64,000 nt of DNA. Source: Fidelibacterota bacterium (GTDB lineage Bacteria > Fidelibacterota > Fidelibacteria > Fidelibacterales > Fidelibacteraceae). Location: positions 135,114 to 199,113 of the forward strand of contig JAQUPD010000001.1 in assembly GCA_028716785.1 (NCBI GenBank), read 5' to 3'. Positions 23,344 through 32,201 of this stretch are shown one piece after another (within the stretch, counting starts at the first letter, position 1; every line of letters begins with the position of its first letter). Both the position numbers and the translations under genes were made by a program. Below the pieces are notes generated by a model, which ran no database searches, was not told the DNA's origin, and saw nothing but the letters and a program-made list of their open reading frames with translations.

Positions 23344-25395
23344 TTATGCTGTAATTAAGGCAATCAAGGCATCCAGATGCTGAAAAGAGAGTTCGCCGGG
23401 AATATGTTTCATTTCTTCCAACTGTTGGACATACTTATCTATATCTTTTGATGAAACGCCTCGCCAGCTCTTCTTTTTATCCAAAACCATCAATCCAATG
23501 TTTGCTGAGAGGGATAAATCTTCACTAAGGGTATGGATTTCCCAAAGAATAGGATTAGCATTAATAATGGGCTCAAGTTTCTTATGATTTTCAGCCCATA
23601 TTTGAAGCATTTTTCGAATTTCAGTTTCCAATTCTGGCGTTGGCTGCTGAATATACTTTTGGACAAGCATGTTAAACCGTCGAGCATCTGGGGCGTCACT
23701 CCAGGCGGCATCAACAAAACGGGTTAGAGGAGCATGTTGGACATATCTTTTTTTATCCACAGCTCTATGGCGTGAATAATTTTTTAACGGCTCTACCACC
23801 CCGGCTAAAACGTGCAAGGATGAAATATCGCGCTGACCTGCAAGGCGTCGAAACATCATATCCCGATTTTTAAGATGGTCTAAACCAACTTCTTCTAAAC
23901 GGATCGACACAATTTCTAATCGGCGATACATATCCTCCACATCTCGAACATTAGCTGGAGACCAAAATCTTTCAGCAATAGCTGCAGTGCGAGGCCAAAT
24001 ACGAAGTCCCGTTAGTTCTTGCGTTACAAATTCCGCCCAGCTTGCAGCTTCTCCACCCAAGATATTTTGGGCAGCAAGAGAATCACTGATATATTCAGGT
24101 CGAACAGGATCCAAAAGGTAGTGATATTCTGTTTTTCTAAAATAATCAAGGTAGTAGCCATTGGAAACAATACCCTTATAGCCATTCAACAAAATTGATT
24201 CCATTTCTTTCATGCGTGGAGACCAAAAATGTATTAACACCTCTTGAGGTAAGTCTGGATTGTAAATTTCCCCCCATCCAATCATCAGCTTGTTATGTTT
24301 CTGAACAATTTCATAAACTCGTTTTACAAAATACGCTTGAAGGTTATGCGTTGTTTCAAAGCCCATAGAATCTATAAAGGCAACAATTTCCGGGTTTTTT
24401 TTCCACCATTTTCCATTGTTTTCATCGCCCCCAATATGAAAATAGGCGTCTGGAAAAAGCGAAGCCATTTCACCAATAAAAGTATCTAAAAAAGCATAGG
24501 TGTATTCATTGGCAGGATTCATCCCTGGATCTTTTATTCCCCAGCTTCTTTCAATCGTATAAAGGGTATCTTTGCTGGATAGTTCAGGATATCCCACAAA
24601 CCAAGAGGTTGTATGACTTGGCATATCAAATTCCGGCACAACACGGATTCCTCTTTCAGCGGCATAAGAAACAATCTCATGAATCTGGCATTGTGTAAAA
24701 TAATTCCCATCTGATCCCATCTCATGAAGAAGAGGATACGCTTTTGATTCTACACGGAATCCCTGATCATCGGACAAATGTAAATGAAGAACATTCATTT
24801 TTACCGCTGCCATGGCATCAATATTCTGCAAAATAACATGAACCGGCTGAAAATGCCGGGCAACATCAATCATGAGTCCGCGCCAGGGAAATCGGGGTTC
24901 ATCTTCAATAAGAACTACCGGGAAAAAATATCCTTCTTCGTCTGCCATTAATAATTGAAGCCACGTTTCTAAGCCATGCAGAAGTCCCAACTCTGTTTCT
25001 GCTTCAAGAATGATTTCACGAGAACTTATCCGCAAACGATAAGACTCATCTTCACCAAGCTTTAATTCACCAGGCCGATAGCACATAAGCTCAAAACCTG
25101 CTTCTGGAGATTGATTAATTCCCGTAATATAATCCTGCTCAAAAAAAAGCCCTGTCCGCCCACTTAAACGCTGTAAGGCACGTGTAGCAGCCTTAAAAGT
25201 CCGATCACCCGCTTCACCAACAACATTAATACGAAAAGACTCATCTAATCGAAATTCGCCACTATCCCATAAAATTTCTTTGGGAATGGGCATCAGAGTG
25301 TGTTCTCTTTCAATTGCTGGCATTGCCATGATTATCTGGCTCTGTAAAAAGAAAATAATTACTACAAAAAAATATCTCTTTTTATAGGTTATCAT
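23344..25395 (-). CDS. beta-N-acetylhexosaminidase, GH20
   Basis: 683 residues from ATG 25395 (AGGAG six bases upstream). A signal peptide is visible (KKRYFFVVIIFFLQSQIIMA). An N-terminal GH20b-like alpha/beta domain (MPIPKEILWDSGEF) is followed by the TIM barrel: FPWRGLMIDVARHF, HLHLSDDQGFR, VPEFDMPSHTT, and HIGGDENNGKWW with the catalytic Asp-Glu pair at about residues 324-325, then a Trp-rich C-terminal active-site region (GGEAASWAEFV, WPRTAAIAERFW). It removes terminal GlcNAc or GalNAc from glycans or peptidoglycan fragments in the periplasm or outside the cell. About 150 C-terminal residues form a helical extension. It stands apart between the riboflavin leader and the receiver-domain gene, so it is probably its own unit. 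Confidence 0.93.
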   Translation of the reverse strand: MITYKKRYFFVVIIFFLQSQIIMAMPAIEREHTLMPIPKEILWDSGEFRLDESFRINVVGEAGDRTFKAATRALQRLSGRTGLFFEQDYITGINQSPEAGFELMCYRPGELKLGEDESYRLRISSREIILEAETELGLLHGLETWLQLLMADEEGYFFPVVLIEDEPRFPWRGLMIDVARHFQPVHVILQNIDAMAAVKMNVLHLHLSDDQGFRVESKAYPLLHEMGSDGNYFTQCQIHEIVSYAAERGIRVVPEFDMPSHTTSWFVGYPELSSKDTLYTIERSWGIKDPGMNPANEYTYAFLDTFIGEMASLFPDAYFHIGGDENNGKWWKKNPEIVAFIDSMGFETTHNLQAYFVKRVYEIVQKHNKLMIGWGEIYNPDLPQEVLIHFWSPRMKEMESILLNGYKGIVSNGYYLDYFRKTEYHYLLDPVRPEYISDSLAAQNILGGEAASWAEFVTQELTGLRIWPRTAAIAERFWSPANVRDVEDMYRRLEIVSIRLEEVGLDHLKNRDMMFRRLAGQRDISSLHVLAGVVEPLKNYSRHRAVDKKRYVQHAPLTRFVDAAWSDAPDARRFNMLVQKYIQQPTPELETEIRKMLQIWAENHKKLEPIINANPILWEIHTLSEDLSLSANIGLMVLDKKKSWRGVSSKDIDKYVQQLEEMKHIPGELSFQHLDALIALITA

Positions 25396-25509
25396 GAGAT
25401 ATCTCCTTAATAGAAGGTTAAATGTATTGAAAGAAAATATCATTCTTTCCTATGATTTACAATGGGGATTTAAGAAGAAGGAAATAACAAGATTCATGTT
25501 TAAAATTTT

Positions 25510-27674: not shown

Positions 27675-28334
27675 TCAAATGATTAAAAATTCCTCAGAAA
27701 TTTCATGTTCCAATTCAATTACAAGTTGGTCCCCTGAAAAAACAGGCCCAACACCCGCAGGTGTCCCAGTAAATATAATATCTCCCGGAAGAAGTGTCAT
27801 AATTGTGCTTATGTACGAGAGAATTTCTGGAATTTTATATACCATATTTACAGTATTACCACTTTGTCGTAAAACCCCATTTTGATAAAGGCGAAAGTTA
27901 AGATTATCTAAGCGTGGAAAGTGTAATATTGAGACAAAATGAGAAATGAGCGCAGAATTGTCAAAACATTTTGCTTCAATCCATGAGCGTCCTTCTTTTT
28001 TTGCTTCAAGAAGGACATCCCGCGCTGTGAGATCAACACCCACACCCACACCAGCAATTAAACCCGATGCCTCCATTTCATCAATATTTCGTCCCTCCGT
28101 CCCAATAAGAAGTGTTACTTCTACTTCATACTCTACACGATTGGAATAAAAAGGAAGCTCAACAGGGCCCGGACTATGAACAATTGCTTGAGGTGGTTTT
28201 AAAAAAATGACAGGGTGTAAATAAACATCCTTATAATTTTCCTCTTTAAATCGATCAGGATAATTATGATCTACGCCAAGAATTTTGGGGACAGGAAAGG
28301 CTTTTTCAACAGGTTGAAGTATTGCATGGGTCAC
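27675..28334 (-). CDS. fumarylacetoacetate hydrolase family protein
   Basis: 219 residues, the short single-domain form (YcgM/FAHD1-like). Family members cleave or decarboxylate acylpyruvates and oxaloacetate or isomerise 2-oxo-hept-3-ene-dioate. The metal ligands are visible: two Glu in VEYEVEVTLLIG and the Asp in GVGVGVDLTARD. Other typical segments are KCFDNSALIS, and PGDIIFTGTPAGVGPV near the C-terminus. It follows the PurL-like gene by two bases, so they are co-transcribed. The substrate is unknown; an oxaloacetate decarboxylase role as in FAHD1 is one possibility. Confidence 0.9.
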   Translation of the reverse strand: MTHAILQPVEKAFPVPKILGVDHNYPDRFKEENYKDVYLHPVIFLKPPQAIVHSPGPVELPFYSNRVEYEVEVTLLIGTEGRNIDEMEASGLIAGVGVGVDLTARDVLLEAKKEGRSWIEAKCFDNSALISHFVSILHFPRLDNLNFRLYQNGVLRQSGNTVNMVYKIPEILSYISTIMTLLPGDIIFTGTPAGVGPVFSGDQLVIELEHEISEEFLII

Positions 28335-28336
28335 AA

Positions 28337-30358
28337 TTAATTGCTCCTTAAATATTCTTTTGCATAAAGTAAGGGTCGCACCGCCTCAAGATCCACTTTA
28401 ACAAGATCATTAAAAATGAACTTACCATGTTCTCGGACCCTACCTATAGTTGTACAAGCAACGCCAAAATCATTGGCAATTCGTTCCATATCCATGAGTT
28501 TCTTTTCTTCCAGGGTAATGAGGGCAGTTGTGGTGCTTTCTCCAAAAAGAAGAGCGTCATCTCGTATTTTTCGCATGGTAAAAATATCACATCCCATTCT
28601 TTTTTCTGGATTAAGTAAGGCACTTTTCACTAACGCAACGGCTAAGCCACCAAGCTCCATGTCGTAAGCTGATTTTAAAATATTTTCTTGTGCCGCTTGT
28701 AGAAGTGCCATATTTAAATGGGATGTAAATTCGCCATCAGCTAAAATAAGCCGACTCTCACTGTATCCGTGAACATAACGGGCATACTCGGAGGATTCCA
28801 ATTCTCCCCGAAAACTTCCAAGAATACAGATAAAATCTCCATCATCCTGAAAGGCAGGATTTATCCATTGCCTTTGGGAACCCAAAAGTCCGGCTACAGC
28901 AACAAGGGGGGAATCATTGTCATACGATTGATTCCACTGGACATTTTCCCCAAGAATTGAAATTTTCAACGCTTTTGCAGCACTTACAATGCCACGAACA
29001 GCATCTAAAAAACGAAAATAATCCTTTTTCTTTTCAGGATTTCCTTCCACAAAAGAGATGGAAGCGCCCAAGATTTCCGCACCCTGACAGGCAACCTGCC
29101 GACTTGCACGTACAAAGGCATTGTAAGCTGCCACAGAGGCATCACGTTCATTGTGATAGTCTTGAAGAGCCATCCTTATAGTAAGTATTTTTTTGCTTCC
29201 TTTAAGTCGTAATAATGGCTGCCCATTTTTTGTATTAATGGTATTTCCTCGAATGGTGGAATCTACCAAAAAGGAATGTGATTTGAAAAATTGAATTTTG
29301 GGCGATGTTAAGAGAGTCTTTAAGGCTTCCCCATAATCTTCTGGTTCTGGAAAGGTCACTGTTTTATGTACTTTTCTACTCTTTATTTCTAATGTTCGCT
29401 CAGACTCATTATGATAAATAATCTCACCACGATAATTTTTAAGTTGCTCGAGAGGAATAGAAGCGATTTCTTCTTTTTGATGGATAAGTGTCAATTTTCC
29501 ATCATCCTCAACGTATCCTAAGGGAATACTCATGGCATCATACCGCTCAAAAACCTCCTTTATTTCCCATTCAACATTTTTCTGAAGACACAGAATAAAT
29601 CCTCCAGGATTTTTCCCTAAAAGAATGTCTTCAGGATCACCTTCCCATCCATCTGATATCAACTTTAATCCCATTCGATCATCCTCAATCATATGTATCA
29701 GGGTGTATAAAATTCCAGCAGGATAAACATGTGATGCACTGATAAGCCAGGGGGAATTTGAAAGAGAAATCATCATTTCATTTAAACGGATAGCTTTGAT
29801 TTTTTCTTCGAGGGAAGAGGTGCTTTTTAACGGGAAAACCCACCAAATCTCACTATGAAGAGATTTTAAGCTAGGAGTTAGAAAATTTTTATTTCGAAGA
29901 AGGCCTATTTCTGCAATAGTTATCGTTTGTTTTTCCCGTGAAATTCCAGAACTTTCAATATTTAAAATGGGGATTCCTGCCCCATAAGCAAACAGTGACA
30001 GGGGTTCAAGAGCATTTTTTAATGTTTGATCATCACCCCCATGACGATGAACAACTGCTCCCACACTTTTTGCACCCAACCCGGCAAAATAACGCTCCGT
30101 GTTTTCTATATCCATGGATACATTAAATAACATCTGATAATTATCACCCACTTCAAGCATTTTTGGATGCTCTTTAACAGATCTTGAACTTTCAACAGGC
30201 AACTCCGCTAAAAGATGACGTGAGTATTTGCCACTGTATTCTTCTTCTTCCCAAAATCGTGTATAAATGCTTATTTCAAGGGGAAGAGGCTCTCGATTGA
30301 GTAAAGAACGAATTTTATTTTTATATTTTTCAACGTTTTTATTTTTTGTGTGTATCAC
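28337..30358 (-). CDS. divergent PurL (FGAM synthase II) paralogue lacking signature motifs
   Basis: 673 residues that align by eye along the full length with the small PurL of the purine pathway, an AIR-synthase-superfamily enzyme. The C-terminal half is closest: RASRQVACQGAEILG, GNPEKKKDYFRFLDAV, ILGSFRGELESSEYARYVHG, LGGLAVALVKSAL, DALLFGES and TTIGRVREHG. The active-site signatures are changed: PurL SEHCSYK reads EEEEYSGKY (37-45), ESHNHPS reads SMDIENTE (81-88), QDMGAAGL reads SASHVYPAGI, and DVS(D/E)GG reads DMELGG (566-571). It is probably not a normal FGAM synthase and could be a regulator or an enzyme on another substrate. It starts at GTG 30358 with AGGAG six bases upstream, inside the 3' end of uvrC. 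Confidence 0.75.
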   Translation of the reverse strand: MIHTKNKNVEKYKNKIRSLLNREPLPLEISIYTRFWEEEEYSGKYSRHLLAELPVESSRSVKEHPKMLEVGDNYQMLFNVSMDIENTERYFAGLGAKSVGAVVHRHGGDDQTLKNALEPLSLFAYGAGIPILNIESSGISREKQTITIAEIGLLRNKNFLTPSLKSLHSEIWWVFPLKSTSSLEEKIKAIRLNEMMISLSNSPWLISASHVYPAGILYTLIHMIEDDRMGLKLISDGWEGDPEDILLGKNPGGFILCLQKNVEWEIKEVFERYDAMSIPLGYVEDDGKLTLIHQKEEIASIPLEQLKNYRGEIIYHNESERTLEIKSRKVHKTVTFPEPEDYGEALKTLLTSPKIQFFKSHSFLVDSTIRGNTINTKNGQPLLRLKGSKKILTIRMALQDYHNERDASVAAYNAFVRASRQVACQGAEILGASISFVEGNPEKKKDYFRFLDAVRGIVSAAKALKISILGENVQWNQSYDNDSPLVAVAGLLGSQRQWINPAFQDDGDFICILGSFRGELESSEYARYVHGYSESRLILADGEFTSHLNMALLQAAQENILKSAYDMELGGLAVALVKSALLNPEKRMGCDIFTMRKIRDDALLFGESTTTALITLEEKKLMDMERIANDFGVACTTIGRVREHGKFIFNDLVKVDLEAVRPLLYAKEYLRSN

Positions 30359-32201
30359 TTATCTCCTTTGCTATTTCTTGTGGTATGTGCTGACGAAGAT
30401 ATGTGAGCATTGTTGAAACTAAAGTTACAGAAATCCCCGTTTTTTCTGCAATTTTCTTTTCACTATCTTGCATCATTTCATCCAAAGATGGGTAGGCATT
30501 ATAAATTTTTTCTTGCCGTTTTGGACCAATACCTGGGATTTCATCAAGGATACTTTTAATCATCGCTTTATCTCGACGGTGACGATGAAAGGTTATGGCA
30601 AATCGATGCGCCTCATCTCGAATTTGTCGCAATAAATAAAGAGCAGGGGATGTTTTAGGAATATTTTGTGGATTGGCATATCCTGGGATAAAAACATCTT
30701 CAAGACGTTTTGCTAAGCCAATAATGGGCAACGCATACAAGCCTAATTCATCCAAAACATTTTTTGCGGCATTCAGTTGACCTTTCCCGCCATCAATAAG
30801 GATTAAATCGGGAAGTTTCCCTTTCTCTTCAAGTTTTCGAATATAGGTACGTCGAATTACTTGTGCCATGGCTGCAAAATCATCTGGATGGTCTAAATCC
30901 TTAATAATAAATTTCCGATATTCAGATTTCTTTGGTCGACCATTATCAAAAACAACACACGATGCTACAATATGCGTTCCCTGAATGTTCGAAATATCAA
31001 ATCCTTCTATTCGCATGGGGGGAACCGAGAGATTAAGTGCTTCCTGAAGCGCCAACACCATCTTCCCCGGTTGTATATTTCCCTTTTCCCTACTCAACAA
31101 AAGATCTTTCAGCATCATATCTGCATTTTTACGAGCCAAGGTTAAAAGTCTGGCTTTGTCTCCCCGTTCAGGGGTAACAATATAAACCCGTCTTCCTGCT
31201 TTTTTTCTTAAAAAATCCTCAAAAAGCTCTTTTTCATCATCCAGTTCACAAATAACTTCCTGAGGAATAAACGCTGTTTCTGAATAATAAGACCTTAAAA
31301 ATTCTTTGGTGAGTTCATTGCGCGTTCGATTCCCTGTTTGTTTAAGTATGAATTTTTCTTGAGATATCAATCGCCCCTCTCTCACACGAAATAATACAAC
31401 AACAGCTGTGTCTTCAACCGCTGCTAAACCAATAACATCCCTGTCTTCGAAATCGGTATGAACAATATTTTGCCGCTGAATTGATTTTTGAATTGCTTTT
31501 ATTTGATCGCGATAGCGAGCAGCTTTTTCAAACTCTTGTTTTTGGGCTGCTTCCTGCATGTGGGCTTCCAACTTTTTTAACGTTTCGGTTGTGTGTCCTT
31601 CAATAAATCGAATAGCTTGTTCTATGATGGTTTGATAAGCTTCCTCGGAAATTAAACCCTGACAAGGTCCATCACAATTTTGAAGATGATATTCCAAACA
31701 GAGCTGAATCTTTTTTGATTGGATGGTTTTGGCATCCAACCGATATCGACAGGTCCGTATAGGAAATGTTTGGTGAAGAAGATGGAGAAGTTTTCGAGTG
31801 TGTTTGACATCGGTATAGGGACCATAATAGCGGGAACCATCTTTCTCAACTCTTCTTGTAAGGATAATGCGTGGAAAGGGTTCATGGGTTACCCGGATAA
31901 AGGGGAACGACTTATCATCTTTCAATCGTACATTATACCTTGGGGTATATTCTTTAATGAAATTATTTTCCATTAAAAGGGCTTCAGTTTCACTGTCTGT
32001 AATAATCCATTCAACATGGCGTACATGTGAAATCATCACAGCAACTTTAGGATCCGTTACATCTCCCCGAAAATAAGAAAGCACTCGATTCTTTAAAACC
32101 TGGGCTTTCCCAACATAAATAATCTTTCCTTCTTCATCTCGAAATATATAAACACCCGGTTTACGAGGAAGTTGAGATAATTTTTTTTGTAATTCATCCA
32201 T
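30339..32201 (-). CDS. uvrC: excinuclease ABC subunit C
   Basis: 620 residues, standard length. UvrC makes both incisions in nucleotide-excision repair with UvrAB. The N-terminal GIY-YIG nuclease (PGVYIFRDEEGKIIYVGKA) makes the 3' cut. A UVR helical hairpin (EAHMQEAAQKQEFEKAARYRDQI, first part visible near residue 205) contacts UvrB. The RNase H-like endonuclease domain (IEGFDISNIQGTHIVAS; DLILIDGGKGQL) makes the 5' cut. Tandem helix-hairpin-helix motifs lie at the C-terminus (LDEIPGIGPKRQEKIYNAYPS). Its 3' end overlaps the PurL-like gene by 20 bases, so that gene is translated from the uvrC message. Confidence 0.97.
   Translation of the reverse strand: MDELQKKLSQLPRKPGVYIFRDEEGKIIYVGKAQVLKNRVLSYFRGDVTDPKVAVMISHVRHVEWIITDSETEALLMENNFIKEYTPRYNVRLKDDKSFPFIRVTHEPFPRIILTRRVEKDGSRYYGPYTDVKHTRKLLHLLHQTFPIRTCRYRLDAKTIQSKKIQLCLEYHLQNCDGPCQGLISEEAYQTIIEQAIRFIEGHTTETLKKLEAHMQEAAQKQEFEKAARYRDQIKAIQKSIQRQNIVHTDFEDRDVIGLAAVEDTAVVVLFRVREGRLISQEKFILKQTGNRTRNELTKEFLRSYYSETAFIPQEVICELDDEKELFEDFLRKKAGRRVYIVTPERGDKARLLTLARKNADMMLKDLLLSREKGNIQPGKMVLALQEALNLSVPPMRIEGFDISNIQGTHIVASCVVFDNGRPKKSEYRKFIIKDLDHPDDFAAMAQVIRRTYIRKLEEKGKLPDLILIDGGKGQLNAAKNVLDELGLYALPIIGLAKRLEDVFIPGYANPQNIPKTSPALYLLRQIRDEAHRFAITFHRHRRDKAMIKSILDEIPGIGPKRQEKIYNAYPSLDEMMQDSEKKIAEKTGISVTLVSTMLTYLRQHIPQEIAKEISDTHKK

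Follow-up and report, generated by a model that had tools for sequence, protein, structure and literature searches.

The FGAM synthase PurL carries its synthetase site in the A1-B1 half of the protein; a second site, in A2-B2, holds ADP and has no known function (PMC3815217). The vGAT or v-FGARAT proteins of gammaherpesviruses (the ORF75 family) are derived from PurL/PFAS and have been described as proteins without the catalytic residues that persist in a different role (PMC6213852). There are also precedents for dead paralogues acting as regulators of a live partner, among them the prozyme of trypanosome AdoMetDC (PMC5201418). In the literature collection searched, no paper dealt with Marinimicrobia PurL or with PurL pseudoenzymes of bacteria.

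The window, a stretch of 64,000 nucleotides, belongs to a member of the Marinimicrobia (Fidelibacterota), class AB16, from the genus of Fidelibacter. At 28337-30358 on the minus strand it encodes a degenerate PurL pseudoenzyme of 673 residues, here called psi-PurL. As the preliminary description stated, the gene opens at a GTG codon within uvrC (30339-32201, minus strand), whose 3' end it overlaps by 20 nt, and it has a ribosome site, AAAGGAG (30363-30369, minus strand), 4 nt before the start codon and inside or just downstream of the end of the uvrC coding sequence. An orthologue is very probably present in the cultured type strain, Fidelibacter multiformis. This organism (IA91) is placed in GTDB class AB16, genus 46-47; the members of that class reportedly do not synthesise peptidoglycan and subsist on muropeptides (PMC11652737). 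A long beta-N-acetylhexosaminidase-like protein is encoded near the psi-PurL locus, at 23344-25443 of the window.

The protein is homologous to PurL across its whole length, as had been noticed by eye. It is matched by the NCBIfam profiles NF002290 (193 bits, cut-off 648) and TIGR01736 (164 bits, cut-off 526) without reaching either cut-off, and a PDB search matched the PurL of T. thermophilus at 1.8e-24. The AlphaFold2 model (pLDDT 87.9, pTM 0.90) has the A1-B1-A2-B2 fold of PurL and was aligned by Foldseek to PurL 3viu with a TM score of 0.82. With this one included, confident PurL-like models were obtained at pLDDT 88 and 85. Proteins of this kind are called dead copies below. Because of these profile, PDB and fold matches, psi-PurL is a PurL in fold and descent, and both the PurL tree and synteny agree on the descent.

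Most of the catalytic apparatus is gone. Eighteen positions that bind FGAR, ATP and Mg, which we take from the established PurL annotation, were placed by motif in an alignment of 57 sequences. Psi-PurL keeps 2 of them, the groups of dead copies keep a mean of 0.3-1.7 and canonical PurL a mean of 17.2. The motifs SEHCSYK, ESHNHPS, GVGG.RD, QDMGAAG, SESQER and GNVS are all replaced or deleted, and with them have disappeared the catalytic His residues, the ESHNHPS block, the Mg2 aspartates and the GNVS loop. The catalytic motifs of the A1-B1 half (about residues 62-275; 29534-30175, minus strand) are lost, as is the active-site GNVS of the A2 domain (about residues 341-505; 28844-29338, minus strand), where Arg420 and Gly426 are kept. 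The loss of the active-site signatures reported in the preliminary description is thereby confirmed; it is common to all 28 examined relatives of the psi-PurL kind (families f1 and f31 and group I), and no alternative alignment of psi-PurL restored the missing motifs. In the sense of an enzyme homologue without the conserved catalytic motifs, psi-PurL is a pseudoenzyme, and it is predicted to be inactive. The motifs that had been noted as kept, GELESSEY, LLFGES and TTIGRV, are all in the B2 domain (about residues 506-656; 28391-28843, minus strand), which is conserved as in working PurL (GELxxSEY, GGLAVA, LLFGES, TTIGRV), and they are kept across the family.

The genome of the window has a second, complete PurL, a 997-residue PurS-PurL fusion (PurSL) encoded between purM and purQ, and since this purM-purSL-purQ set is complete, psi-PurL is not the genome's FGAM synthase. 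The same gene order is found on a Saprospira plasmid, and the PurL tree joins the window's PurSL to that of Saprospira with support of 100/100, so that a Bacteroidota-like origin of PurSL is likely. Replacement enzymes are called foreign here by tree position and operon layout.

A search for PurL-like proteins in 245 genomes, mostly MAGs, found short divergent proteins of 540-710 aa in families f1, f5, f6, f8-f11, f13-f19 and f31, whereas f2, f4 and f20-f30 have a single intact small PurL, about 745 aa long. All named relatives of psi-PurL from an alignment search (n = 30) belong to the Marinimicrobia/Neomarinimicrobiota, and no viral relative was found in viral contigs. Genomes with a dead copy carry another PurL, which is a PurSL of about 1000 aa in f1 and a 780-aa type elsewhere; the latter scores above the PurL cut-off and in one genome (G064) is part of the operon purA-purL-purM-purQ-purC. 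A 369-aa protein of the AIRS family, encoded at 1459-2568 of locus L002, matches PurL positions 52-351 (165 bits), keeps part of the A1-B1 motifs, has PTS IIA-like upstream neighbours and represents a stand-alone half PurL, a type also found in G209 and G217.

The partners of PurL follow the replacement. Among 32 panel genomes, all 11 with an intact small PurL had PurS, whereas the 20 with a dead copy, the G000 genome included, yielded no standalone PurS, and neither did G048, which has the replacement only. PurQ scores fall into separate ranges (at least 297 bits versus at most 221 bits), and the PurQ and PurM of dead-copy genomes belong to the replacement set. A single full PurM was counted in each genome, and wherever its surroundings were readable it lay within the replacement operon; G001, a genome of family f2, has only a PurM fragment. 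By these patterns of PurS, PurQ and PurM, the purine module was exchanged and only the old PurL stayed. A split synthase formed with PurS or PurQ was rejected on the same grounds, and the proposal of the preliminary description that the protein is specifically a regulator of purine synthesis is not supported, PurS being absent and PurQ, PurM and PurL all having been replaced. In most Marinimicrobia families the replacement FGAM synthase is itself a small PurL with no standalone PurS detected in the genome (loci L074-L078; L077 5755-8088 and 2974-4230). The PurQ of that set (L077; L074-L078) is extended at its C terminus by about 190 residues that match no Pfam family and might take the place of PurS.

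The gene order around dead and intact copies is the same in its essentials. Psi-PurL is followed after 2 nt by a gene for an FAH-family hydrolase (27675-28334, minus strand), which also adjoins intact purL in f2 and f4, and uvrC is its ancestral upstream neighbour. Intact purL is found in the orders uvrC-NHL-purL (f25), uvrC-x-purL (f26, f29), NHL-purL-FAH (f4) and purL-FAH (f2). Dead copies are found in the orders uvrC-psi-FAH (f1 g1), NHL-psi-FAH (f31), uvrC-psi (f13, f14, f6; in f14 the dnaX cluster follows) and recA-recX-psi-(FAH) (f5, f8-f11, f15-f17, f19). Because the order uvrC/NHL-purL-FAH is common to both, the dead copy is the resident gene at its ancestral locus and not an inserted duplicate. 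The earlier view of a repurposed paralogue is abandoned: the gene is the phylum's own purL, apparently displaced by a foreign purM-purSL-purQ operon.

At least two inactivations were separate. The genome G001, from the order of the window, has only an intact PurL, scoring 902 bits, and the FAH beside it is sister to that of the window genus (56% identity, on a starred branch), which indicates that the G001 contig is native and its locus orthologous to that of the window. Since a sister family in the same order thus has an intact PurL at the ancestral locus, PurL was inactivated in the window's lineage independently of its inactivation in group I. Starred branches separate AB16 from group I in the RpoB tree, on which at least three changes are required to account for the labels. 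In the tree of the PurL C-terminal half the dead copies of f1 and f31 fall within intact PurL, away from those of group I. With all dead copies placed in one clade the AU test gave p 0.096, so that by itself the gene tree falls short of formally rejecting one shared origin; that the inactivations were independent is concluded from the species tree, from synteny and from G001.

The dead PurL directly follows recA-recX in many families and uvrC in others, often with an overlap or no gap (L061, L065-L069, L071, L072, L079 and others). This coupling is consistent with drift from one ancestral neighbourhood, and a link to DNA repair, to which uvrC and recA-recX belong, is for that reason only a lead. 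The preliminary description had cited the FAH and fhs neighbours as a sign that the gene is maintained; they deserve little weight, since such an FAH is absent from several genomes with a dead PurL. As an obligate partner FAH was rejected, being missing from f1 g2 and g3, f6, f11 and G061, all with a dead PurL, and present in f12, where the dead copy was not found.

The dead copies have been maintained by selection, as was suspected from the sequence of the window, and that selection is domain-specific. Over 27 pairs dN/dS is 0.06-0.32, and in most pairs of the window genus it is about 0.08 in both halves of the protein. The identity between the window genus and the intact PurL of G001 is 18% in A1, 19% in B1, 32% in A2 and 47% in B2; the corresponding values within group I are 13%, 18%, 22% and 48%, and those between G001 and other intact PurL are 74%, 66%, 67% and 50%. 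Overall, A1 and B1 are 13-19% identical in dead copies versus 66-75% in working enzymes, and B2 is as conserved in dead copies (47-48%) as in working PurL (50%), where it is among the least conserved domains. The B2 of intact Marinimicrobia PurL is not unusually conserved relative to the other domains, so that a second function there is putative.

The best explanation, which we consider probable, is that the resident PurL of Marinimicrobia was displaced by horizontally acquired enzymes and kept as a pseudoenzyme with a non-catalytic role exerted through B2, a role that probably existed before they arrived. The synthesis of FGAM and AIR would have passed, in the window's lineage, to a foreign purM-purSL-purQ operon, and the ancestral PurS, PurQ and PurM would have been lost. 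The old purL would have stayed at its locus, losing its active site and most of the auxiliary nucleotide site, and may have been retained as a binding or scaffold protein through B2. This role of B2 may already have been present in the intact enzyme, because other families, independently and with a different replacement PurL, kept the same domain. In Marinimicrobia of marine and subsurface habitats, foreign enzymes apparently took the place of the original PurL on two or more occasions and the old gene was kept, which suggests a second job for PurL there. A general form of the explanation, on which our judgement is evenly balanced, is that Marinimicrobia PurL is bifunctional, combining FGAM synthesis with an advantageous non-catalytic role of B2, which came to light on two or three occasions through the takeover of catalysis by a foreign FGAM synthase. 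Since f12 and possibly f30 have a replaced PurL and no dead copy, which is gone or undetected there, the role of psi-PurL would be dispensable somewhere. The f12 genomes (e.g. G048, G055) are streamlined, at about 0.7-1 Mb, and have a replacement PurL and a related FAH, with no dead copy detected.

It is possible, if unlikely, that a new function was gained separately in each lineage after displacement, B2 being merely the part that happened to be reused. Group I has B2 residues of its own (SHRGELGGS, GETQG, ERICM), unlike f1, and the N-terminal half is also under purifying selection, as would be expected in that case. Against it, one and the same domain is held in separate lineages to a constraint equal to that of working PurL, where B2 is the least conserved domain and so not simply the most stable part of the protein. 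Quite unlikely is a regulatory subunit, in which the dead PurL would pair with the replacement PurL or PurSL and activate or stabilise it in the manner of the prozyme. The dead PurL is indeed found only where a replacement PurL exists, and precedents for such regulation are cited above; that co-occurrence, however, follows from the displacement itself, and the retention of the same B2 beside two unrelated types of replacement is better explained by a shared partner other than either.

The possibility raised in the preliminary description that the protein is an enzyme for a new substrate, which would imply an altered active site, is highly improbable, even though its predicted fold is intact and selection acts on the entire protein. 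All 29 dead copies lack the two catalytic histidines and the two Mg2 aspartates, nearly all lack the other ligands, and no new conserved set of acidic or histidine residues appears in the aligned A1/B1 of the dead copies. In f1 g2 and g3 this half even shrinks, the proteins having 540-600 aa. At the auxiliary site between A2 and B2 the Glu and Asn of AExxRN, which we assume to be ADP-site residues, are lost in almost all dead copies. In psi-PurL the Glu and Asn are lost from A2 and the second D/E of DVS(D/E)GG is also missing, the Asp of YDxxV being kept in the window genus. With residues lost at both nucleotide sites, a new ATP-dependent activity is unlikely on sequence grounds. The idea that A2-B2 was kept for the sake of a retained auxiliary ADP site is not supported, since most ligands of that site are lost. 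Slow decay of a gene without function, to which the motif loss and the fast change of the N-terminal half might point, can be dismissed in view of the dN/dS values, of a B2 conserved as in enzymes and of reading frames that persist in many families over great distances. The early assessment of psi-PurL as a maintained pseudoenzyme is thus upheld by the motif loss, the dN/dS values and the second complete PurL.

Repeated displacement with retention amounts to a natural separation-of-function experiment, in which catalysis is removed and other selected demands on a core enzyme are left, and it singles out B2 as the domain for testing. Genome annotation could name the dead copies PurL and so credit them with an FGAM synthase activity that, to go by their residues, is almost certainly absent.

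Compared with the described systems, psi-PurL shares with small PurL (TIGR01736 / NF002290) whole-length homology, the predicted fold and the genomic locus of the phylum's intact PurL. It differs from small PurL by the loss of the catalytic and most auxiliary-site residues, by the absence of PurS from the genome and by scores far below the cut-offs. Like the AdoMetDC prozyme (PMC5201418), it is a catalytically dead relative beside a live enzyme. The prozyme, however, is a paralogue of its live partner, whereas here there are two kinds of replacement, only distantly related to the dead copy. With vGAT psi-PurL has in common its nature as a PurL-derived pseudoenzyme, and the B2 of group I weakly matches TIGR01739 (2.3e-8). 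In contrast to vGAT, which is viral, belongs to the large PurL type with a glutaminase domain and acts through host PFAS, psi-PurL is a bacterial small PurL of 673 aa without a GATase domain that arose in place after displacement.
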